Positions 1,467 to 61,170 of a stretch of DNA of 64,000 nucleotides are shown here, piece after piece. The notes beneath the pieces are model-generated. The model was not told the origin of the DNA, did no database searches, and saw only the letters and a program-made list of their open reading frames with translations. Position 1 is the first letter of the stretch, and each line of letters opens with the position of its first letter. The translations under genes and the position numbers were made by a program. The stretch lies in the NCBI GenBank assembly GCA_903813345.2, contig CAIIXF020000008.1, forward strand, positions 15,794,822 through 15,858,821. Reading direction: 5' to 3'. Origin of the DNA: Owenia fusiformis. Its lineage: Eukaryota > Annelida > Polychaeta > Sabellida > Oweniidae.

Positions 1467-4400
1467 GTGAGTAGAACTATATGTATTGATGTATTTTTCA
1501 GAATATTTCAGTTCAAGAATCAGAAATTGAACCTACAACCTCTTTTGAAATGTTGAATTTGAAAGTAACGACAGAGTTCTATGAGAAATATGTCAAAATC
1601 TAAAACATCTTGAAAAGAAAAAATGTAACTTAAAAAATGATCATTACTTAACATTGAAATTCAAGAGAAATCTAGGATTTGTGGTTGACGGGGAAGTTAA
1701 TGATGAAATATCATGGATATATTCAGAATGGCAATAAAGTAAAATTAATTATCCCACCGAACGAAGTTCGAGGGGGATATAGAAAAGCCGTCCGTCCGTC
1801 CGTTCGTCCGTCCGTCCGTTCCTCCGTCCGTCCGTTCGTGTGTCCGGGCAATAACTCAAATACCGGTTGACAGATTTTATTCAAATTTTATAGGCTTATG
1901 CCTTATGGGTGTAGGACCTCTGCTCGAGAAGGAATTTTCAATATGGCCACCAAATTCAAAATGGCGGCCATTTTTCCGAAAAAATATAATCTTTGATAAC
2001 TCAAATACTAGTGGATGGATTTGGTTCAAATTTTATATGCTGTTGCCTGAGTACAAAGGAGCCTTGCTCAAGAAGACATTTTCAAGATGGCCACCATGTT
2101 TAAAAATGGCGGCCATTTTTCGGAAAAAATACTATCTTTGATAACTCAATTACGAGTGGATGGATTTGGTTCAAATTTTATATGCCGTTGCTTGGGTACA
2201 AAGGAGCCTTGCTCAAGAAGACATTTTCAAGATGGCCACCATATTTCAAAATGGCGGCCATTTTTTTTGTAAAAAACGTTATGTTTGATAACTCAAATAC
2301 CATCAAATGGATTTGGTTCAAATTTTACATGCTGATGCCTAGGGACATAGGAGCTCTGCTCGAGAAGGGATTTTCAAGATGGCAGCTAAATTTCAAAATG
2401 GCCACCATTTTTCATAAAAGAACGTAACCTTTGATAACTCAAATACCAGTTGATGGGTTTAGTTCAAGTTCTATATGCTGATGCCTAGAGACAAAGAAGT
2501 TCTACTCAAGAAAATATTTTCAAGATGGCCACTGAATTTCAAAATGGCCGCCATTTTTCGTAAAAAAAACACGTAATCATTAATAACTCAAATACCAGTG
2601 GATGGATTTGATTCCAATAACATGCTGATATTTAGGGAAAAAGGAGATCTGCTTTAGAAGAAATTTCAAAGGAATCAGCTGAATTTCAAAATGGCTGGCA
2701 TTTTTCATAGAAAAAGTTAATCTTTGATAACTCAAATACCATTGGACGGATTTACTTCAAATTTTATATTCTGATGCCTAGAGATAAAGGAGTTCTGCTT
2801 GAGAAGAAATTTTCAAGGTGGCTGCTATTTATCGAAATCTCCGCCATTTTTCATTAAACATGTAATCATTATCCTTGATAACCCAAGTACCAGTTGACGG
2901 ATTTGGATTAAATTGAATATGATGATGCCTTGGGACATAGGAGCTCTGCTAAGGAAGAAATTTAAATATGACAGCTGAATTTCAAAATGGCAACCATGAT
3001 TAATTTTGATAATTCAAATACCAGTATTTATCAAAACATGTTTTGTTCGGTGGGATTTGCTACTCCGTGGAGTTGCTGTTTTTCTAGTTGTATATCATTT
3101 AAGTAACACCCTCGACATAGACGGGTATGCTATCTAGGATTGGTTGTTATTTAGAGAAGGTCATTGCGAGACACCCTGTATATGATCAGAATACCAATAA
3201 AGCGCTATATATAATTGTGTGTTATTTCAGAAACACCTTCAAGCAGTGATTCAAGTGAATTGAGTGACTCTGATCAGGAACCTATACCAGACTCAGTCCT
3301 GTTAGACACCACACCCTTTGCCTCTCCCCTACAGGTGTTTGCCAGTCTAGGGGGCCTTGCCCTCTTAGCAGAGCATCTTCCTTTACTTTACCCTGAGATT
3401 ACCCGCCAGGTCAGCCCGCCTAACTCCAGCAAGGAAGTAGGTGGCAGCACTGTACCTGGGAGCGACTGGGTCACCGTGGAATCATCAGATGACATCTATG
3501 AGGAGATTTATGAACCCATACCTACGAGCACTCATGCTAAAACAACGAGGCACGCTACACCGACACTGCCAACGATTCCACCTCACAGCTTGGTGGCGTT
3601 TGGTCTGTTCCTGAGGCTCCCTGGCTATGCTGATGTGCTTCTTAAGGAACGGAAGAAGGCACAGTGTTTACTTAGACTAGTTCTGGGAGTCACAGATGAT
3701 GGGGATGGAGGTGAGATAATAGCTTCAATGTTATTTCAAGAAATAAAGGTTACCTACAGAGTGTGGGTGTGTGACATCACATATTTACTGGCCTAAAAGC
3801 CTAGAGCCAAAAAAATACCATGGCAATTTGGTCAAAAATCAGTTTTTGCAGTCATTCTGAAGTCCTGTAAGACACAGCCTGTTTAAAAGGACTTTAATAT
3901 GCAGCGTGTTGAAAAACAGTGCAGGGATGTGTCATTCAACTTCTTTGGTTTACCACATATTGTTTTTTCATCAACAAGAAACATCTTGAACTGTCAGTGT
4001 CCTATCTATTTCAGGCCACATACTGAGCTCTCCCATAGCTACTTCCTTACCAACGTTACCATTCCACGTCCTTAAGACTTTGTTTGACACGTCTCCATTG
4101 ACAACGGATGACGGGGTGCTGCTGAGGCGTATGGCACTGGACATAGGGGCTCTTCATCTAATCCTAGCTTGCCTGTCAGTCCTTAGTCACCAGGGACCCA
4201 GGACTCCTATACCTGGATTCCATCAAGAGGTTAGTGAAGTCTTGTATCAAGCCCTTGTGTATGTATTGAACTTTGATTAACATTGTAGAAATTCTGTTAT
4301 GTCCACTAAAGTTTCATATCCATTGGTTCAGAGATTCATACAATGTAATGCTAAATAGCAACGCCTGGACATTGGAAAAGATTTCCCTCTGAATTTAAAT

Positions 4401-7400
4401 CTAGCATCATATTGTAGTAAATGTATGTTATCTGGAGATAGATTCTCAAGTCCCATTGGGTTAAAGAGACCTATTCCCACCGCCCTAGCGCAGGGTTTAA
4501 TCTTAACAATTCTACTGTATACATATCTTTTATTGACTCTTAAACATGTCAGTCTATGTAACATGGAAATTTGTTTGATTACATAGATTATCCTCGCTGC
4601 TACACAAGCTGCAATGACTGTATCTAATAATAATGGAGCTCCTACCAACAAGCCAGAGCTGGAGAAGGGACAGCATTACTGGGCCAAGGGGACAGGGTTC
4701 GGCACTGGTTCTACTAGCTCCAGCTGGGACGCCGAACAAGCCTTGTTGAGACAGCGCAGCGAAGAGGAACATGTTACATGTCTTTTACAGGTAAGTGTGC
4801 TGTTTATTTCATATGAGATGATATTTTTTGTTGAACATTGTTGAGTCTATCTTGTCAGGTTTTGCTTTGAGATTAACACTGGGTGCCTATTTATTGAGAT
4901 TTATAAAGCCAGTTAAAATCAATTGAGGGGATCAAGAGTTTTCGGGAAAGGAGCTGTTGGATATAAGATGCAGAACTAACAGCACTAACACACGGGAAAA
5001 ATAATGGAGTTTGCAAAATTCTATGATTTTAGTGGTACTCATCCCGTACACAAGCCCCTCAATTCACCCATATTTCTAGTATCTTTTATGATATTTGTTA
5101 TGTTTCGCTTGCAGGTTTTTGCTAGTTATGTGTGGCCCCAAACAGATGAGACAAAGTCTGCGGAGGTAGGACGAGAACCTGTGGGTCACTCTGAGAACTC
5201 TGGTATCCCTGACAACCTACCAGAGTTGCTATCTCAATCGTGCCTGGTGCCAGCCATATCCTCATACCTCAGGAATGACTCTGGTGAGACTAAAAATTGA
5301 TTGTAATTTACACAAATCAATGAATGTGTTTATTTGTATGGCAGTTTGAGCTTGCAATAAACACAGACTTTTAACTTTTACCTTTTGGATTTAGTTAATA
5401 TTCATAAGAGGCTCACTGTTTTGCACTAGAATTTAGACATACTTTTGTGGAGAACAATGTATAGAAAATTTGAACTTGTATTTGTAGTGTTAGACATGGC
5501 CCGCCATGTTCCCCTGTACCGAGCCTTACTAGAGTTGCTAAGAGCGATATCATCTTGCACAGTCCTTGTGCCCCTCCTCCTTCCCCTGGATGATGTTGCT
5601 AGTGACAACTCGACATCTATTGCCAGTCTGCTGATGAAAATGAAGGGATGTGTGGATACATATGCAAGCAGGCTCAAGTAAGAGGCAACACATATAAAAT
5701 ATTACATTGATGTTCAAATGTTGTTAACTATTATGTAGTTAAAAACTGTGATACAAACACTGCCAACATCAGAAGATTAAAATTGAAGCACATTTTCTAA
5801 ACATGAGAATTGACTACAAAAACTATTAAGTGAATTATTTGTGCATTTCTGTTTAATGTTGAATTAACATTTTTTCAGGGGTGGTAATAGTAAGAAAGGA
5901 AAAGATGGGAAAGAAGAGGATGATGAGAATGAAGGGCTAGCTCTGCTGATTCCTGATATTCAGCAGACGGCAAATATTGTTTATGCTTCTTCCGAGAAAT
6001 GTCGCAAAAAGTCTGAGTCGGACATGGATGATTCAGATGAGTCAGATGCCAAGGGAGCATCGAGTGCTGATGTTTCACTTGATCAAAGATATCTGACTAC
6101 AATCAAAGAACTACAGTTTGGTAAATGAATTATTCTGTACTTATATTTTACAGCTGGATTTTAACCTTTGATCTAAGTATGTAAGATGTTGCTCTATTTT
6201 AATTGACCAAAAGTTTAATTGAATTTTTGTCTGCAAGTAATACGCTTCCAGTTATACCCGCAGTCACCACCAGTTCAGCCCACTATTAATCATAACTGAC
6301 CTTAACCTAACTTCAACCTTATTGGTCGAACCAAATGTGCTGTCTTGCCGACGCCAGCCACTATACAATTTAAAAAACAAATGTTACTGTTTAACTCCAG
6401 ATACGTGTGAGATGGTGACAGATGATGACAGTGGGGCGCTTAAATTTGTCACACCCCACCATTACCAGCCAAATGTTAAAGCAGCAGGTACTGTAAATAA
6501 CGCAGCACGGTCACGTCGTCTTGCCCAGGAGGCCGTCACACTCTCTACGTCGCTTCCTCTCTCCTACAGCAGTAGTGTCTTCGTCAGATGTGACGAGGAG
6601 AGACTGGACATTATGAAAGTAAGTACTGTATAACATGCCTAGTATCACATGATTATTGATTACAGTATTATTACTTAGTGTTTCCATGAAATTCCTTTTA
6701 GGATAAAATTTCTTCTATTTCATACATGAACACAATTTTTTATCAGAACTTAAAGTTATGTTGTTTACTTATTTTCCTGTGTTCAGTTTCTCTTGATATC
6801 AATAGTTGATGATAAATCTCCATTGACACAGTGTTTAAAAATCGTTAAAAGTTGATTTACTCTTTTAAGGGGCACATTTTAATTTTGATATATTCCAGCT
6901 ACAGGCCAATATAATTTTACTTTAATTAAATTGGACGATGAATCAAGAAATGTGATTTTTCTTACTATTAATATTATTATTTAGTCTGAGCAAAGCCACT
7001 AATGTCATCCATTTATCCATCTACGAGGCAAATCATTCGTTTTGTAAAATTATCTTCTTTGAAACAATTATCCACATCACCCAGTGCCTCGATTATTTGA
7101 TTCTGTGGTTACATTCTGCATCTTTCCTTCCTGTTTCATATTAGGACATGAATTATCATGTATAGACATAATTTCGTGACATGATTTCATTTTTTCAAAA
7201 GTATATGTAAGTACATGTGTTGCCATTTATAGACATAATTTCATAGCATGATTTCATTTCATGTTTTAAAAGTACATCTAAGCACATGTATAATCCCAAC
7301 GAACTAAGTACAGTAGGGATATAGGGAAGCCATCAGTCAGTCCGTCCGGATTTTTTTCATATTTGTATAATATGTGAAGTTTTACGCAAAATAATTTTTT

Positions 7401-10400
7401 CAAGATGGTCGTCACTTTAAAAGTGGCTGGAATTTTTCCCAATAATAAATATTATTGTTTGAAATTTTGATAGTATTTTCACAAAATCTATCTTTTCCAC
7501 ATTTATTCTGTGTTTGGCAGCCTGACCACCAGGAGCCATGAATCAGGAAAACAGGAATTTTTGTTAATTTTGAGATCTTTCTGAAGTATAGCTTTATTAT
7601 ACTCAAATGAAAGGTAATTTAGAGTTGATTGCAAATATTGTATAATTTTTCTGATTTGGGCCTCTTAAATTTAAAATGGCTGCCGAATGTGTGATTATGC
7701 AATAATTTCCAGATCTATTCAAAATATGGCTACATTGTACTCAAATTGAATGAAATTTAGAGTAGATCACAAGTATGGTATTGTTTTTCTGATTCATGAC
7801 TCAGAAAATTCAAAATGGCTGCCAAGTGCTATTATTACTTCAAGGCCTCATCAAAGTATGGTTACATCATACTATATTAGATCTCAAATATTGTACCTTT
7901 GACTGAATGGTCACCCAAATGCTTAAATGGGTGGAAATTCTGATACAGTGTGTCTTTTAATACCTGCCAATTTAACCAAGGGTAGAGTAAATGGTAAATA
8001 TTACATTGTGACATTTACAGATTCATGAATATAGTGTTCATTGGGATTTGCTACTCTGTGGAGTTGCTAATTTATAGTTTCATTTCATGTTTCAAAACTA
8101 CATATACAGTACAAAGAAGTGATAAATGATTCAAATGTGAAACTTCATCCACATTGTTAATCATTAAGGCGCCAGGCCTAATTTTCACTTTGGAAATACG
8201 ATCCTGAATACATATGAATTCTCTTTTATTCACAAGGCCATTAAAGATAAATTAAATGTTTTTCATTCCTTCGCACATTTTGCAATTCTTTATGAAAAAT
8301 AATAATGTTTCATCACATTTTATCACATCATATCAAGGTAGATCATTCAGAATTAGTGATTTGTTAACATCATAATTTAGCATAGCGTTGAAGCGGCCAC
8401 AGTATTGGGTATTTTGATTAACCTTGTTCCGAATAGAAAAATAACCTCTTTGAGTAATGAAAAATATTTTTGGTGCATCAAATCTGGAAAGTAGAAATAA
8501 ATTTTCCCAGTCATGGCATTTTCCCGTAGAAAAATTGTTTTGTTCAGCTTATAGATGAAACTATTTATCGAGTTGGCAGCACTCACGTAATTGTCTGTAG
8601 AGTGCATTTGTGTAACCACAACACCGACAACAAGTGCTGGGAAATAATAGATATTAAATAATCTTTCTCGTCCCTATATTGCAGGTGTTAATCACAGGTC
8701 CAGTAGATACCCCATATGCCAATGGATGCTTTGAGTTTGATGTATTCTTTCCCCAAGACTACCCCAACTCACCTCCTCTCATCAACTTGGAGACCACAGG
8801 CAACCATTCAATACGGTTCAACCCTAATCTATACAATGATGGCAAGGTATGTGTGACCATTTATCTATACAATGATGACAAGGTATGTGTTACCATTTAT
8901 CTATACAATGATGGCAAGGTATGTGTTACTATTTATCTATACAATGATGGTAAGGTATATGTTACCATTTATCTATAGTATAATGGCAATGTATGTGTTA
9001 CCATTTATCTATACACTGATGGCAAGGTATGTGTTACTATTTATCTATACAATGTCGAAGGTATGTGTTACCATTTATCTATACAATGATGGCAAGGTAT
9101 GTGTTACCATTTATCTATACAATGATGGCAAGGTATGTGTTACCATTTATCTATACAATGATGGCAAGGTATGTGTTACCATTTATCTATACAATGATTT
9201 CAAGGTATGTGTTACCATTTATCTATACAATGATGGCAAGGTATGTGTTACCATTTATCTATACAATGATGGCAAGGTATGTGTTACCATTTAAAGCAGT
9301 GCCCTTCATATTGATATACAACATATGTCAAAATATCAAATTTTGACTAATCAATTGCTTGGTAGAGAAGGAGTAAAAAGGAAGGTTTGGTTTCATCATA
9401 GAAAAACATTGAACTTGAGTTTGTACTAGTTTCACATCAATGTTCAAGAGAGATGAGTGTCTTGTTATATTAGCTTATTAAAGATCATGTAAACTTAATC
9501 TGACTATTAGTTCTGTAGAAATGTAATCTGATGCATGTCTGTGCGTGTTATAACGTCATGGTAGCTAAGGTGTCATGTGTCGTTCAGTATTCATTAAATT
9601 CATTTTATATTGTATATAACATGAATACATTGGATGTCCCTAAAATTAGCAGTTTTTTCCAAGCAGAAATGCTTTTGTGTATTTATTCCAATTATATCGC
9701 CATCACTACTTAATAAACCTTTCCTTTAATGCATGTTTAGTTGAATGTAGTGCATTTTGTTCATAAGTCAATTTACAGTTACATGACTCCAACTCTGCAT
9801 ATGTGGTCCGAGATATTTTGATTATCCCCAAGGCCAATATAACTGCCCAAGGGCAGTAGGTTCTTAGGGTAGATATATTATATTGACCAAGGGATTATCC
9901 CTATAATCTGAACCGACTATTAGGAAGGTCTGTTTATCTCATATACCCTTGTTGTATCTATTCATCTGGTTCACATTGTTCATTCCTGAGTTCAGAAAAT
10001 TTCACCTTTAGAAACACTTAAAATATTTATTTTCAGTTTTTATGTCACTGCCAGAAGTGGAGTTTGTAGCAAATGGCAGGTGGTGACATTTTGCATGTAA
10101 ATGCCATGCGTTTTCTTGGCTGTGACCAGAAAAAAAATTCCAGGGGGGCTCACTTGTGACAATTTTGGTCCAAAAATGGCCAAAATCTCTTAAAAAGTGC
10201 TCAGAATGGTTAATAACTGCATGATTTTGCTCAAACACATCGAACCCCCCTGGCTACGGGCCTGCCTGTTATATTCACAGGGGCTTGTCTGGAGGCGTCG
10301 GGCAAGCCCTCCGATGAGTCTACTGCTTATTAATAGTAAAAAGGGTGGTCGGTTCTGATGCTACCTGAAATTTGTAGAAAATGATTGTTTATAAGTTGTT

Positions 10401-13400: not shown

Positions 13401-16400
13401 CAGACTTGCTTTATTGTCCTTGTCATCATTGAGTGATGCCTGGTGATTTGGCAAATGCTTCTTAAATCTTGTCATCAAAATTCTAGCTGTCCAACTTCAA
13501 ATTTTGACATGTGTAAGAGTGATGACTAGTGCCAAGATCTGATTAGGTTTTGGGCATGTTGGCTAAATTACATGGTGTGTAAGAGTGATGACTAGTGCCA
13601 AGATCTGATTAGGTTTTGGGCATGTTGGCTAAATTACATGGTGTGTAGGTGTGATGACTAGTGCCAGGATCTGGTTAGGTTTGGGGCATGTTGGCTAAAT
13701 TACATGGTGGCCATTTTGCTCTTTAAAGTGTGATTTTATCAATGTTTGTCTTGTTCAAAACTGTTGATATTATGACATTGCACCAAGTTCTTCAAATGTT
13801 TTTATATGCTAATGCTATATTATTATTTAATTTGTTTATTTTTATTGCTATTTTGTTTGTTTTTATATAGGTTTGCCTGAGTGTTCTCAATACATGGCAT
13901 GGTCGCCCAGAAGAGAAGTGGAACTCTCAAACATCCAGCTTTCTACAGGTATATAACATTTAGATATGTTTTCATTTTCAAATATATAACTTTCTACATC
14001 AATGTTTCAACACATGAATTCACAAACATTGAGCTTTCTATAGGAATATAGCATATAAACACACATACTCTAGAATATCTTCCTACAATCATTCAAGTCT
14101 ACAGTACATGTATTTAACATTTAGAAACATTACATTGATGTTCAGTATATTACGTTGTATGACTATAACATTGCTCAGGGATGAAAACGAAGAAAAATGT
14201 GGAGTAAAACTTGAACCGAGAGGATAATTAATCTAATTTATTAAAAAAAATTGAATGACATCATTGCTAGGTATCTATTCTCCGCTTTCCTTTGCCTCCG
14301 TAGTCCATATATGTAACTGCCATACATATATTTCCCTATTGACCTGCCCACATCAATGAATAAAAATAGTATGAGGTTGAAATATGAAACCTGACAATAT
14401 GTACAAGTCCTCCTAGTCATAAATTGTTGATCATTTTACTGATGCGACTATGTCAATATTTGATGTTCCAAAAATGTTTTTTATTACTACAGATTAACCC
14501 CCTCACTCCTCAATTGATGTAATAATAGAAGATCTCTACTGTACATAGATATACACATGTACAAGGTTTCCAAGTCGTAAATTGTTGATCATTTACTCAT
14601 TGGACCATGTCAATATTAGATGTTTCAAATTGTCATTTATTACAGCGCAGATTAACCCCCTCACTCCTTCAATAGATGTAATAATAGAACATTTTTCGTC
14701 ATTTATATAAAGATTGATGAATACTAATCAAATATTATGAACTTCAACTTCAACCTCCTCCCTAAATTATAATATTTAAGTGGGCATACATAGATATATT
14801 GACAGATTTTGTCTCTTAGCTAATATTATTTTCACTAAGTATATCTGTATCTTTTATGTCTTCACCACCAGAAGTGCTGACCTAATTGACCAACTTCTTT
14901 GTGAAAGGTGTTTGGCAGTTTGCATTTGGTGTCTGTATTAAATGGCAGGTGGTGACATTTTGCATGTTAATGCCCTGTGAAATTTTAATGTTTAACTCCT
15001 ATCCTCATAGGTACTTGTGTCCATACAATCACTGATCCTTGTGTCTGAGCCTTACTTCAACGAGCCTGGGTATGAGAGGTCACGAGGCACCCCCACAGGA
15101 AATGCAAGTTCACGGGAATATGACGCTAATATACGCCAGGCTACAGTCAAGTGGGCCATGCTAGAACAAATCAAAAATACTAAATCATGTTTCAAGGAGG
15201 TAGGAATAATGTTTATTTATTTTATATACAGATTGCCCTAAAAACCAGACCAACTAGTCTTGCAATTCAATATGCAACACCCGCTATGGCTCAGTGGCAG
15301 AGTCAAGGTTACCAATATCGCTTGGCCCCGGGTTCGATTCCCAGTTCAGACAAGTTTGTTTGTGCGTTATGTAATTCTGGGTGTTTGACTGAGTGGTTCA
15401 CGACTCATATAAAAGGCCGTGGTGTGTACCTGTATGTCTGTGTACCTGTGCACACAAAAGAACACAGGGCTCCTCCAAGGAGGAGTCTCTGGCTCTGTCT
15501 TCGAGTGTAAAATACGTAAAAATACGGAATATTCCAATGAGGTATTGCTCGCCAAATATGGTGGTAACCAAGATATAATAATAATAAATAACAGGTATAA
15601 ACATAGAATGAAATATTTGTTTTATTCTTATATCAGTTAATATACGTTGCCAATTGTATAATTCACAAGTAGGGCAGGGCGTACATCTTTTATCAATTTT
15701 AAAATTTGAGTTTGAAAATAATAGTTTTTAGGAAAATCAGATTGATATTTTTCTTTGAAGATAACATATGTTTTTGTATTAATGAAAATATTTCAAAATA
15801 AGTCTTGGTCAAAGATATGACTGCCTTTTAATGTTTTCATTTCATTTGTGAAATTTCCTACGTGAAATAATCATTTTGATATTCAACAAATGAGAAAATA
15901 TTTTCATTATTTTAAGCTATGTTACACCGAGTAGAACATATTGTATTACCATTAATATTTATATTTGATGAAAGATATAAACTTACATGATACAAACTAA
16001 TATGACATGTCGAGAGTAATAAATAGTAGCATGATGATTAATTATCTAGTGTTATATTTACAGGGGGTATATCAGTGCAAATTATCCCAAAATTATCAAA
16101 ACCATAAAAGTGTACCAAAAATTCATTTCCGTCTCTAAATAGGCACTGCTGGCTCGAGGAGACAACATTGATAGTCATTTATATTTTTTACATCGTGAGA
16201 TGAGTCCGGTTTATATGTCTGTTATATCAACTGCCGCATTGTGACTCTTAATATATATCAGTAAAATTTACAAGATGGAAAATATTAGATCCAACAGTTT
16301 GGCTTCCTTTAAAAAATATATCATGTAAAATAAATCATTAAGAGCAATATTTTTAATAAACCACACATCCCATTTTCCTGCTTGAAACACTGTAATCCTC

Positions 16401-19400: not shown

Positions 19401-22400
19401 TCCCGATGGTCATTTTTCAGGGTAACCTCCCCAAGGTAACCTCCTCAGGCTGAACTCTTCAAGATACTAGTAACCTCCTCAGGGTTACTTCCTTAGGGTC
19501 AACTCTAAGTGTTACTTTCATCAACTCCTTAGGTTCAACTCTAAGTGTTACCTTCATCAACTCCTTAGGGTCAACTCTAAGTGTTACCTTCATCAACTCC
19601 TTAGGGCCAACTCTAAGTGTTACCTGCCTCAACTCCTTAGGGTCAACTCTAAGTGTTACCTGCATCAACTCCTTAGGGTCAACTCTAAGTGTTACCTGCA
19701 TCAACTCCTTAGGGTCAACTCTAAGTATTACCTTCATCAACTCTTTAGGGTCAACTCTAAGTGTTACCTTCATCAACTCTTTAGGGTCAACTCTAAGTGT
19801 TACCTGCATCAACTCCTTAGGGTCAACTCTAAGTGTTACCTGCATCAACTCCTTAGGGTCAACTCTAAGTGTTACCTGCATCAACTCCTTAGGGTCAACT
19901 CTCCTCATATCTTTCATTATGTATTGCAGGTTATCCACCGACACTTCTGGTACAAACGCGAAGAGGTATGTCAACAGATAGATGAGTGGATAGAAGACTT
20001 AGAGGCCAACACCAGTGACAAGAGAACGGGACGGGCAGTCGCTCATAGCTTGGTGGCTCTCAGAGTAAGTACAAACTACCTCAGAGACCAGACTAGGGTA
20101 AAAGTGGCTCAGTATGAGCAATTAGAGCACAATGGACCAGGACTGTTTTTTGGGGAGACACTCATTAGGTGTTGGGTTACCAAGTTCTTTTTTGAGAAAT
20201 ATAATCTAAGTATGTGTAAGGAAGTGAAGAAGAATTTTGGCCCAGATTTTTCAGAAAGATGTTTTGTTATTGAATAAAAATGTAATAGGTTAGTAAAAGA
20301 TCTAATGGTCAAACACTGTATACAAAATATAACTGGTTTTGGTGCTGTTATTAATCAATAAATATTTGAAATACAGATTTTAAATTGAGTAAGATACTCA
20401 AGGAAGCATTGGTCAAGAGACACCTATAATGCCACTGAGGATTTGGTCCCTCGTGTTTGATCTGTACTTGACTGATTTGTGGCAGTAAAATTTAATGATG
20501 AAAAAATGGTCAATATGGTAGCTCAGCATTTGCATGGGTCTACATACGTATAAAGCAAGCTATTTATTCAAGCAAAAAATATATCAAAACAGTATGACTT
20601 TTTTCAAACCATGACTGACCATTCACACTCACAGGCAATAAGACCTTGATGGAATCATGCACATTCTAGGGCATTATAGACGTAATTTGAAAACTATATT
20701 TATCCTCGGTCGCTCTATCAGTAGAAACACTATGAGTCAGTAATTGCTAACATATAGAATAGAACACCTCCATCCCTGTGCAATAACACCGCTCTTTATT
20801 TGCACATTCTTCAACTCCCTAAGGGCAATTCCTGTATTTATTAGATAAAATATCAATTAACATTTTGTAAGGTAATGTTACCTTATAAGGCAATATTAAC
20901 CTTCCTTCTCAAGGCCCTTAGGGACCAGGTTAAATATCATAGTGTCATTTTAGCTAATTCAATTTCATTAATTGGCTAAGGGGAAGTCAGACTTCATTAA
21001 AAACATCGAAATTGAATAAGTGATAGTGTTATTTCAATGTTTGATAAGGTCTAATGAATGTTGGGAGGGGGTTTGGATTTTCCTTGAAGTGGTTCTTTTT
21101 AGACCAGGACCTTATGGGTCTCAGCTAGAGTTTATTTTGATGTAAAGACACAATCCAAGTCAGACTACAGTGTGCCTTGACATTTGTAACTTGAGCACTT
21201 TAGGGAAAATTATATATACTACAGGATGATGGTAATACTTAGAAATCATCATGATATTGTCCTTAGACACTACAGCATTTCATAGAATAGCAAAACATTG
21301 AAGGAAGGAGCATCTCGATAATGGAGAATACATGGGGTTTCAAGAGATGCCCATGCATTTTTTAGAAGGCCCTCATTATCCCACCAAACTATGTTTGAAT
21401 AAAGAGAAGCTGTTTGTCCATCTGTTCATGTGTCTAGATGATAACTCAAATACCAGTTGACAGATTTTTTTCAAATTTTATAGGGGTATGTCTTATGGTT
21501 GTAGGACCTCTGCTCAAGAATGAATTTTCAATATGGCCACTCAATTTAAAATGGTTGCCAAGGTGTAATCTTTGATAACTCAAATTTTATGTGCTGATGC
21601 CTAGGAACATAGGAGCTTTGCTCAAGAAGATTTTCAAGATGTCCACTGAATTTCAAAATGACCATCTTTTTTCATAAAAATGCAATCTTTGACAACTCAA
21701 GTACCAGTTAATGGATTCAGTTTTGATTTTATATGCTGGTGCGTAGGGACAAGCAAGCCTACCCAAGAATTTTTTCAGTGGGATTTACTACTCTGCAAAG
21801 TTGCCGTTTTCTAATTTAAAAAAAATTTACATCTTGGCTCAGAGCTGGACTTTATCTTGAAGAAAAAGGTGAGAATGATGCGCCCCCATTCATTATTGCC
21901 AGCAGCTGTTTATGATACTGAATCATTGGTGTCAGTCTTAATCGGTTAACCATCGATAGTGCATTGACCAGTTTGTATTTTCATTACTGTTAATTAGTCA
22001 ACTGTGTATAATTCTGTTATTTCCCACGCAAAAATTGCAAAGTAGTCTGTTAGTTTTTAAGTCACCTCCAGTTGTGGACAGTGTTTGGTGGTTGGTGTTC
22101 ATTGTGTGGTGATTGGTGTTTGGTGTTTGGCAAATTCTTCCAAGAACTGAACAAGCACTGTTTCAACACATATCTGCCAATATCTGTTACCATAGCAACA
22201 TATTGAAGGTCAAAAAGTTATTTTTTCAGCCTGATTCAATTTGATCTATCAAAATCATCTACAAGTTCTCAGAAGTTCAAATCTTACTTCAGATCATCTG
22301 AGATTTGACCTTTGGTTGACCTTCAATGACCTTCGAAAGGTAAAAAAGTAAAATCCTGTGTTTTTCAACTTTCAAGATCTCTTTTGAAGTCAAGTTAAAC

Positions 22401-51608: not shown

Positions 51609-53170
51609 CCCAGCTAACAGTGACGTCCATGTAACGTCACTCATATGTAGTATATAAGTTCACTGGAGACGTTGTATATTTCCGTTATATAAACGTCAAA
51701 GCAACGTAAAATTGTGACATTCAGCAAAACGTCGGTGGATGGTTAAAAAATGACGTTGTAGTAATGTGTTAGTAAAGTTCGAAATTTGTGCTGGTGTGAA
51801 AAACGTAACAATGACGTTGAATTTTTACCAGTTTGGTTCATTTGCAACGTAATATAAACGGCAAAATTTAACGTTGTCGTAACGTTTTTTAAATGTGTAA
51901 AATATTTGTAAGTGCAGGAAACATTACAAAGACGTTGCAGTTCTCACCAAATTGTTTCATTTGCTACGTAATATAAACGGTAAAATTTGACGTTGTCGTA
52001 ACGTGTTTTAAATGTGAAAGATATTTGTAAGTGTAGAAAACGTTACAAAGACGTTGTGTTCTCACCAAATTTGGTACATTTGCTACGTAATGCAAACGGT
52101 AAAATTTGACGTTGTCGTAACGTGTTTTGAACGTGAAAGATATTTGTAAGTGTAGAAAACGTTACAAAGACGTTGCACTTCTCACCAAATTGTTTCATTT
52201 GCTACGTAATATAAACGGTAAAATTTGATGTTGTCGTAACGTGTTCTAAATGTGAAAGATATTTGTAAGTGTAAAAACGTTACAAAGACGTTGTGTTCTC
52301 ACCAAATTTGGTACATTTGCTACGTAATGTAAACGGTAAAATTTGACGTTGTCGTAACGTGTTTTAAATGTGAAAGATATTTGTAAGTGTAGAAAACGTT
52401 ACAAAGACGTTGCACTTCTCACCAAATTGTTTCATTTGCTACGTAATATAAACGGTAAAATTTGATGTCGTCGTAACGTGTTCTAAATGTGAAAGATATT
52501 TGTAAGTGTAAAAAAAACGTTACAAAGACGTTGCGTTCTCACCAAATTTGGTACATTTGCTACGTAATGTAAACGGTAAAATTTGACGTTGTCGTAACGT
52601 ACGTGTTTTAAATGTGAAAGATATTTGTAAGTGTAGAAAACGTTACAAAGACGTTGCAGTTCTCACCAAATTGTTTCATTTGCTACGTAATATAAACAGT
52701 AAAATTTGACGTTGTCGTAACGTGTTTTAAATGTGAAAGATAATTGTAAGTCTAGGAAACGTTACAAAGTCCTTGTTTTCCCACCAAATTGGTTCATTTG
52801 CAACGTAGTGAAAATGGCTAATTGTAACGTTGTCAAAACATGGTTTGAATGTGAAAAATATTTGTAATTGTAAAACACGTTACAAAGACGTCATTTTCTG
52901 ACCAAAATGGTTCATTTTCAACGTAGTGCAAACGGCAAACGTGTTTTCAATTGAAATGTAAAAAAATAATTGTAAGTGCAGGAAACGTTACAAAAAGACG
53001 CTATGTCCTCACGAAATTGGTTTATTTGCAACGTTGTCGAAACAGTTAATTTTGACGTTGACGAAACGGGTTTTAAACGTGAAAAATACATATAAGTGTA
53101 TGTGAAAAAGAACGTGACAAAGACGTTGTGGTCTCAACAAATTCGTTTAATTTGTGACGTGAAGTAAATG
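51609..53170 (+). repeat. ~118-bp AACGTT-rich satellite with A/B dimer structure
   Basis: It begins CCCAGCTAACA at 51609. Core units (marked by CTCACCAAA at 51943, 52061, 52181, 52298, 52418, 52538 and 52662) alternate between type A (CTCACCAAATTGTTTCATTT, TAATATAAACGG) and type B (CTCACCAAATTTGGTACATT, TAATGTAAACGG), giving a ~238-bp higher-order unit. Units decay towards both ends. Each has several ACGT motifs (AAACGTTACAAAGACGTTG, GACGTTGTCGTAACGTG). No coding. Confidence 0.9.
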
Positions 53171-58553: not shown

Positions 58554-61170
58554 CCCAGCTAACAATTTTACGTTGTGATAACGTCGTCAGAATATATGTC
58601 TCAAGTTGTAGCAACGTTAAATATGGAACGTTGTAGGTACAGGAAGGTGTGGACTCGCACAGATGTTTAAAGAACGTTACATTTGACTTAAATATCACGT
58701 GTCAGGAACGTAGTAGCGACCTTAACAATTACGTCGCCAAAATAACGAAACTGTAACGTACTTACATTACGTCATAAATACGTGGCCAATCTAAATTTCT
58801 GGTAACGTTGATATGGAACGTTGTAGGTACAGGAAGGTGTGGACTCGCACAGATGTTTAAAGAACGTTACATTTGACTTAAATATCACGTGTCAGGAACG
58901 TAGTAGCGACCTTAACAATAACGTCGCCAAAATAACGAAACTGTAACGTACTTACATTACGTCATGTATACGTGGCCAATCTAACTTTCTGGTAACGTTG
59001 ATATGGAACGTTGTAGGTACAGGAAGGTGTGGACTCGCATAGATGTTTAAAGAACGTTACATTTGACTTAAATATCACGTGTCAGGAACGTAGTAGCGAC
59101 CTTAACAATTACGTCACCAAAATAACGAAAATGTAACGTACTTACATTACGTCATAAATACGTGGCCAATCTAAATTTCTGGTAACGTTGATATGGAACG
59201 TTGTAGGTACAGGAAGGTGTGGACTCGCACAGATGTTTAAAGAACGTTACATTTGACTTAAATATCACGTGTCAGGAACGTAGTAGCGACCTTAACAATA
59301 ACGTCGCCAAAATAACGAAACTGTAACGTACTTACATTACGTCATATATACGTGGCCAATCTAAATTTCTGGTAACGTTGATATGGAACGTTGTAGGTAC
59401 AGGAAGGTGTGGACTCGCATAGATGTTTAAAGAACGTTACATTTGACTTAAATATCACGTGTCAGGAACGTAGTAGCGACCTTAACAATTACGTCACCAA
59501 AATAACGAAAATGTAACGTACTTACATTACGTCATAAATACGTGGCCAATCTAAATTTCTGGTAACGTTGATATGGAACGTTGTAGGTACAGGAAGGTGT
59601 GGACTCGCACAGATGTTTAAAGAACGTTACATTTGACTTAAATATCACGTGTCAGGAACGTAGTAGCGACCTTAACAATAACGTCGCCAAAATAACGAAA
59701 CTGTAACGTACTTACATTACGTCATATATACGTGGCCAATCTAAATTTCTGGTAACGTTGATATGGAACGTTGTAGGTACAGGAAGGTGTGGACTCGCAT
59801 AGATGTTTAAAGAACGTTACATTTGACTTAAATATCACGTGTCAGGAACGTAGTAGCGACCTTAACAATTACGTCACCAAAATAACGAAAATGTAACGTA
59901 CTTACATTACGTCATAAATACGTGGCCAATCTAAATTTCTCGTAACGTTGATATGGAACGTTGTAGGTACAGGAAGGTGTGGACTCGCATAGATGTTTAA
60001 AGAACGTTACATTTGACTTAAATATCACGTGTCAGGAACGTAGTAGCGACCTTAACAATTACGTCACCAAAATAACGAAAATGTAACGTACTTACATTAC
60101 GTCATATATACGTGGCCAATCTAAATTTCTGGTAACGTTGATATCGAACGTTGTAGGTACAGGAAGGTGTGGACTCGCACAGATGTTTAAAGAACGTTAC
60201 ATTTGACTTAAAATTTCACGTGCCAGGAACGTGGAACCAACCTAAACGATGACTTCGCCAAAATAACGAAAATGTAACGTACTTACATTACGTCATAAAT
60301 ACGTGGCCAATCTAAATTTCTGATACGTTAATTATGGAACGTTGTAGGTACAGGAAGTTGTGGACTCGCACAGATGTTCAAAGAACGTTACATTTGACTT
60401 AAATATCACGTGCCAGGAACGTAGAACCAACCTAAACGATAACTTCGCAAAAATAACGAGACTGTAATGTGCTTATGCAACGTCACATATACGTGGCCAG
60501 TTTTAAGTTCTGGTATGTTATTTATGGAATGTTGTAGGTACAGGAAGGTGTGGACTCGCACAGATGTTTAAAGAACGTTACATTTGACTTAAATATCACG
60601 TGCCAGGAATGTAGAACCAACCTTAACAATGACTTCGCAAAAATAGTGAGACTGTAATGTGCTTATGCAACGTAACATATACCTGGCCAGTTTAAAGTTC
60701 TGGTAACATTTGTCTTGGACCGATGTAGGCACAGGAAGGTCTGGACTCGCACAGATGTTTATACAACGTTACATTTTACTTAAATATCATGTGCTAGGAA
60801 TGTAGTAGCAACCTTAACAATGACTGCAAAAATAAAATAACAGACTGTAACGTGCTAATGCAACGTCACATATACGTGGCCAAGTTAAAGTTCTGGTAAC
60901 ATTAACTATAGAACGTTGTAGGCAAAGGAAAGTGTGGACACGCATAAATGAGTATACAAGTTACGTTCGACTTAGATATCACGAGCCAGGAATGTAGTAT
61001 CAACCTTAACAACGACTTTGCCAAAATAAAGAGACTGTAACGTGCTTGTCACATACATGGCAAATTCATAACTTCTGGTTACATCAAGTTAGGACAACAC
61101 ATGCAAGGAATGTTCTAGTAACCTTAACTATGCCATCAACAAGATATAGTGATAGTAATGACTAACGTCC
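58554..61170 (+). repeat. 190-bp AACGTT-rich satellite with 380-bp higher-order units
   Basis: It begins CCCAGCTAACA at 58554, like the 51609 array. Units start ATATGGAACGTTGTAGGTAC at 58621, 58811, 59001, 59191, 59381, 59571, 59761, 59951 and 60141, then about every 190 bp in increasingly degenerate form to about 61100. Two unit types alternate from 58811 to 59950: CACAGATG + AACGTCGCC + AAACTG and CATAGATG + TACGTCACC + AAAATG. Confidence 0.95.

Follow-up and report, generated by a model that had tools for sequence, protein, structure and literature searches.

A minisatellite with mirage-type anatomy multiplies a BIRC6 5' splice site beside the catalytic cysteine codon in Owenia fusiformis

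Results

A BIRC6 exon end amplified into an array of donors

The DNA analyzed here (the window) is a stretch of 64,000 nucleotides from the annelid Owenia fusiformis, lying on contig CAIIXF020000008.1 (C8 below; positions 15,794,822 to 15,858,821, forward strand) of the 498-Mb assembly GCA_903813345.2, and our subject is a tandem array that lies over an exon/intron boundary of its BIRC6 gene. Open frames at 3215-3793, 3990-4277, 5430-5678, 5868-6125, and 15011-15238 of the window match BIRC6, as do two exons that flank an intron of about 5 kb with the array at its start. The upstream exon (8685-8846) follows directly on the acceptor TTGCAG, encodes a product running from VLITG to NPNLYNDGK, and ends at the lysine. 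When it is joined to the downstream exon (13871-13948), all 80 of the 80 residues align without a gap, in a phmmer search, to the PDB chains 3ceg and 8atm, named BIRC6, and likewise to 9qgg, which bears the name BIR repeat containing ubiquitin-conjugating enzyme; the homologous proteins therefore carry no insert at this junction. The first two chains are human and the third is from Drosophila.

A previous, sequence-only reading of this DNA had described a row of about 13 duplicated donors at 8827-9293, made from the last 20 or so nucleotides of the exon plus its donor and placed directly before the exon of the active-site cysteine. This description is borne out. Tandem Repeats Finder (TRF) reports a period of 36, 13.0 copies, 92% matches, and a score of 822; the unit consists of the last 20 nt of the exon and the first 16 nt of the intron; and the array lies within the intron whose acceptor-side exon starts with the catalytic Val-Cys. 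GT is present in all 13 copies and AAG/GT in 12 of them (the slash marks the splice junction), while the longer AAG/GTATGTG is found at 11 donors, each with a computed U1 duplex energy of -8.7. Pairing is weaker at 8955 (GTATAT, -5.9) and at 8991 (AAT/GTATGT, -3.5). Consecutive donors at 9027 and 9061 are only 34 nt apart, and the frame of the later units is shifted. Donors of other BIRC6 exons, placed by eye from the alignments, score -4.5 to -9.3 in five of six cases, so the array donors fall inside the range of the gene; for the sixth, after the frame 3215-3793, a scripted search gave no match. The conserved exon end itself forms the outermost, first copy, and the exon seeded the array rather than the reverse, because the exonic part of the unit encodes NLYNDGK, a stretch that the PDB BIRC6 chains and 9qgg share without change.

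Table 1. Features of the BIRC6 array and its two flanking exons (window positions)
Feature	Position	Strand	Evidence or remark
BIRC6 UBC-domain exon, ends NPNLYNDGK, phase 0	8685..8846	+	PDB phmmer; final 20 nt gave rise to the array
36-bp x 13 tandem array over exon/intron boundary, mirage-type minisatellite	8827..9293	+	TRF, unit alignment
Authentic 5' splice site AAG/GTATGT	8847..8852	+	Protein homology stops here and restarts at 13871
Duplicated donors 8883, 8919, 8955 (8955 weakened, GTATAT)	8883..8960	+	Translation, U1 duplex energies
In-frame TAG, closes the open frame for donors from 8991 on	8976..8978	+	Translation
Duplicated donors 8991 (weak), 9027, 9061, 9097, 9133, 9169, 9205, 9241, 9277	8991..9282	+	Donor positions, unit alignment
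Next BIRC6 exon, starts with catalytic-site codons (Val-Cys)	13871..13948	+	PDB phmmer; donor CTACAG/GTATAT at 13949

A DNA search of the genome with 8660-9330, by a method that skips simple repeats and some further stretches, matched one place only, namely the query itself, which speaks against a second copy or haplotig of the array. That the array is an error of assembly is extremely unlikely, because its units are set apart by substitutions of their own and by an indel; similar arrays at other loci, described below, also speak against it.

Coding potential and constraint of the copies

From 8847 the frame stays open through three inserted units, so that splicing at 8883, 8919, or 8955 would insert 12, 24, or 36 residues, and the TAG cuts off the products of donors further on. 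The sequence-only reading had proposed these products, and to this extent its account of splicing stands: alternative donors would yield them. It had gone on to suggest that array length could tune BIRC6. The sequence carries no sign of such tuning or of splicing at the later donors. The open frame spans three inserted units only, and the spare donors give no indication of selection. By a count made by eye from the unit alignment, with unit 7 (which has the indel) left out, there are 13 substitutions against the consensus, 2 of which fall in the donor 9-mer where 3.25 would be expected (P 0.33). Selection on the spare donors is therefore not detectable in either direction. Among the differences between units are a stop, a frameshift, C>Y, and G>D; the copies look neutral, with no detectable coding or donor constraint, at the little power that 13 changes afford. 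Five of the last six units are identical to the consensus, compared with none of the first seven, which suggests that the distal end has turned over recently, as in a minisatellite undergoing turnover.

These observations bear on a splicing rheostat, in which some transcripts would use later donors, giving active-site inserts of 12 to 36 residues or truncated proteins, and array length would set the dose of active BIRC6. Three in-frame units followed by a stop are what such a device could use, and most of the spare donors pair with U1 as the authentic one does. The donor changes, however, show neither excess nor deficit, and the frame is unconstrained. Together with the amphioxus literature considered below, this makes the rheostat unlikely in our judgment. 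Masking of the spare donors by hairpins was considered and rejected: predicted local accessibility is low throughout (0.001-0.08 over the 13 sites at the shortest window length, 0.018 at the first donor) and gives no clear ranking.

Repeats at other ubiquitin-conjugating-family genes

For comparison, 48 other matches to the ubiquitin-conjugating family, all confined to contigs C1-C12, were fetched as 35 loci and scanned with TRF. TRF rows touch two of these matches, and no clear exon-edge donor array was seen among the 48, which makes BIRC6 the one clear case in 49 places; a repeat across the start of one match (C11:13249237), which was split between two loci (L004 and L029), could have been missed. 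The first of the two (L016, 766-1361) is a 26-bp x 22.7 array that starts roughly 15 nt into an intron of a gene that we named by eye as UBE2W-like. It belongs to the same repeat class and the same genome as the BIRC6 array, but does not copy the donor, and thus serves as an example of an ordinary intronic minisatellite. The second (L018, 783-829) is a 19-bp x 2.4 repeat that reaches one end of its match. In the window, 10,127 of 64,000 bases fall within TRF rows, and in the family loci 2,378 of 57,684; minisatellites are therefore common here.

The window holds further arrays. A 36-bp x 11.5 array at 19490-19902 stops 27 nt 5' of the apparent acceptor (19930, placed by eye) of a BIRC6 C-terminal exon and stays outside the exon edge. 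Satellite-like arrays lie at 58613-61047 (190-bp x 12.8) and 51800-53100 (119-bp x about 11).

Donor arrays at other genes

Genome-wide, we searched for three AGGTRWGT at short spacing, with the reversed pattern as control. The pattern gave 571 + 690 matches against 541 + 390 in the control, no more than a mild excess of donor-bearing arrays. The matches listed extend over the first 19.4 Mb of contig C1, where they form nine clusters by position, each of which was inspected on its upstream side. Among these, two of the nine are donor arrays with homology support.

The better supported (L039, C1:6975500-6977100) has a Rieske exon ending in TGESVYQ (Pfam PF22543, E 3.4e-8, above cut-off; PDB 3d89, E 1.1e-8), followed by a 38-bp array that repeats the donor CAG/GTGAGT. 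The weaker case (L037/L045) is an exon of a TauD-family dioxygenase that ends in YSHK and is followed by a 25-bp donor array, with the next exon starting WEPGD. Joined, the two exons match Pfam TauD at E 4.3e-6, narrowly above the threshold (27.3 bits, where 27 is required), and also PDB 5j92 (E 0.0016), in an alignment that crosses the junction; by itself, the upstream exon matches no Pfam family and the next exon gives a weak TauD match (E 0.055). The exon end lies at 5268 of the reverse complement of the fetched locus (L045, C1:3276800-3286700, minus strand). From there onward a script lists 26 donor-like sites, the authentic one included, and 114 nt of the upstream exon recur inside the intron at 95.6% identity.

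Three more clusters (L038/L046, L043, and L044) are candidates, each with an exon-like open frame, an acceptor-like start, and an end at the first donor. Pieces of L038, L043, L046, and L047 gave no Pfam match, one of the L044/L048 pieces matches DUF4904 at E 0.017, below its cut-off, and two of the exon-like candidates had no match in NCBIfam. The 33-bp array of L046 (5183-5881, unit VSPNAHSFDTE) may be a coding repeat or a mirage, the frame being open for 233 codons over it. No convincing exon-like frame was found at the donor in L036 and L041. At L040 and L042, two places on C1, AGGTGAGT repeats follow the same flank, apparently as copies of a single dispersed repeat.

Discussion

The BIRC6 array of O. 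fusiformis is a real new case of a known anatomy, at a striking place. The "mirages" of amphioxus are described as tandem repeats over exon/intron boundaries in Adh3, the globins BflGb6 and BflGb9, and TnC, with similar repeats in PGBD5; their array length varies, many of their copies, though not all, carry AG/GT splice signals, and their authors report or infer that they do not seem to interfere with regular splicing (PMC3087553, PMC3902484). The likeness is one of layout, as the BIRC6 unit also crosses the boundary, its copies carry donors (AG/GT in 12 of 13), and the authentic edge is the outermost copy. By anatomy, as far as the DNA sequence can tell, the BIRC6 array thus fits the mirage class. 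It differs in standing at a 5' splice site beside a catalytic cysteine codon, in its 36-bp unit and 13 copies, and in its host genome, which does not resemble that of amphioxus: the assembly has about twelve large contigs (31.9-62.2 Mb for eleven of them) against 19-20 chromosomes in amphioxus species, and it gave no match to the GFP family, which amphioxus has, in a search whose control genomes gave none either.

A second comparison is with the internal tandem repeats of human segmental duplications, which have on average units of 30 bp and 4 copies and can span exon-intron boundaries (PMC2812944). Here too the BIRC6 array is alike in being a minisatellite across such a boundary. The human repeats, however, lie in paralogues of recent duplication, for which alternative splicing or novel introns are reported, whereas the BIRC6 array was found once in its assembly. 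What we could consult of the minisatellite literature on Caenorhabditis elegans and earthworms reports no duplicated splice site, and a literature search for duplicated or tandem 5' splice sites found no match, although its wording, which lacked the prime sign, may have missed some.

Our preferred explanation, to which we assign a probability of roughly 0.81, is that the array is a mirage-type minisatellite whose first donor is used nearly always and whose other copies leave with the intron. A 36-bp segment over the BIRC6 boundary would have been duplicated in tandem, and slippage or unequal exchange would then have enlarged the array, leaving 12 spare donors at the start of the 5-kb intron. 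The first copy, which retains the ancestral exon end and donor, would most likely be the one used, the remaining copies being removed as intron. Array length would be expected to be polymorphic between individuals, and the position at the active site would be incidental, Lys-Val-Cys simply happening to straddle an intron.

Several points weigh against this explanation. Of the 12 copies beyond the authentic donor at 8847, 10 equal it in U1 pairing, and the first donor has no clear advantage in sequence or in predicted structure. The 48 other ubiquitin-conjugating-family matches indicate that boundary arrays are not frequent at exon edges. The amphioxus splicing results would transfer to this array by analogy only, and minisatellites placed at exon-intron boundaries in humans are reported to lead, in part of the cases, to alternative splicing and to novel introns (PMC2812944). 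Given these human examples, silence of the array is likely, but not certain.

The same literature cuts both ways for the splicing rheostat. In the human survey, an alternative transcript accompanies 66% of the intron modifications that such repeats cause (PMC2812944), while the amphioxus arrays, which are of the same kind, are said to leave splicing undisturbed. With the human cases in view, it is less far-fetched that array length might tune BIRC6 than amphioxus would suggest. A bolder proposal, which we consider quite improbable, is that the second to fourth donors are used in some transcripts, duplicating the LYNDGK-VC segment, that BIRC6 activity varies between individuals with array length, and that the lineage has many genes with multiplied donors, most of which a first-donor rule keeps silent.

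Could the spare donors instead serve as extra landing sites for U1, aiding exon definition or blocking premature polyadenylation in the 5-kb intron? The equal pairing of 11 of the 13 sites would suit such a role, and the intron holds 10 AATAAA/ATTAAA hexamers, a count from an AT-rich intron given without a chance expectation. Nothing, however, indicates that the intron needs help, and neutral growth fits, given the similar arrays at unrelated genes; we regard this role as very unlikely.

Finally, introns are described as arising by tandem duplication of AGGT-containing segments (the Rogers model), with ATP2A1, the RdRp of potato, and 24-bp arrays in fission yeast as examples (PMC4974935, PMC3443670). 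The BIRC6 array likewise consists of tandem copies of a segment with AG/GT, and might be a relic of the birth of its intron: the start of the intron, read through, gives VCVTI, which resembles VCLSV of the next exon. Given the GTATGT start, such similarity over the next three codons has a P of 0.05, and the sequence before the acceptor is, by eye, unlike the unit. Unlike the introns of that model, the array multiplies a donor ahead of a 5-kb intron, with no good sign that it created the intron, and we consider such an origin highly improbable.

Arrays of near-identical donors beside one true exon end are natural experiments on the choice of a 5' splice site among equals. O. fusiformis carries several arrays of this type, including one that directly precedes the BIRC6 catalytic cysteine codon, and offers clear cases for RNA study; these arrays could explain why those of amphioxus have been called silent while those of humans are reported to alter splicing.
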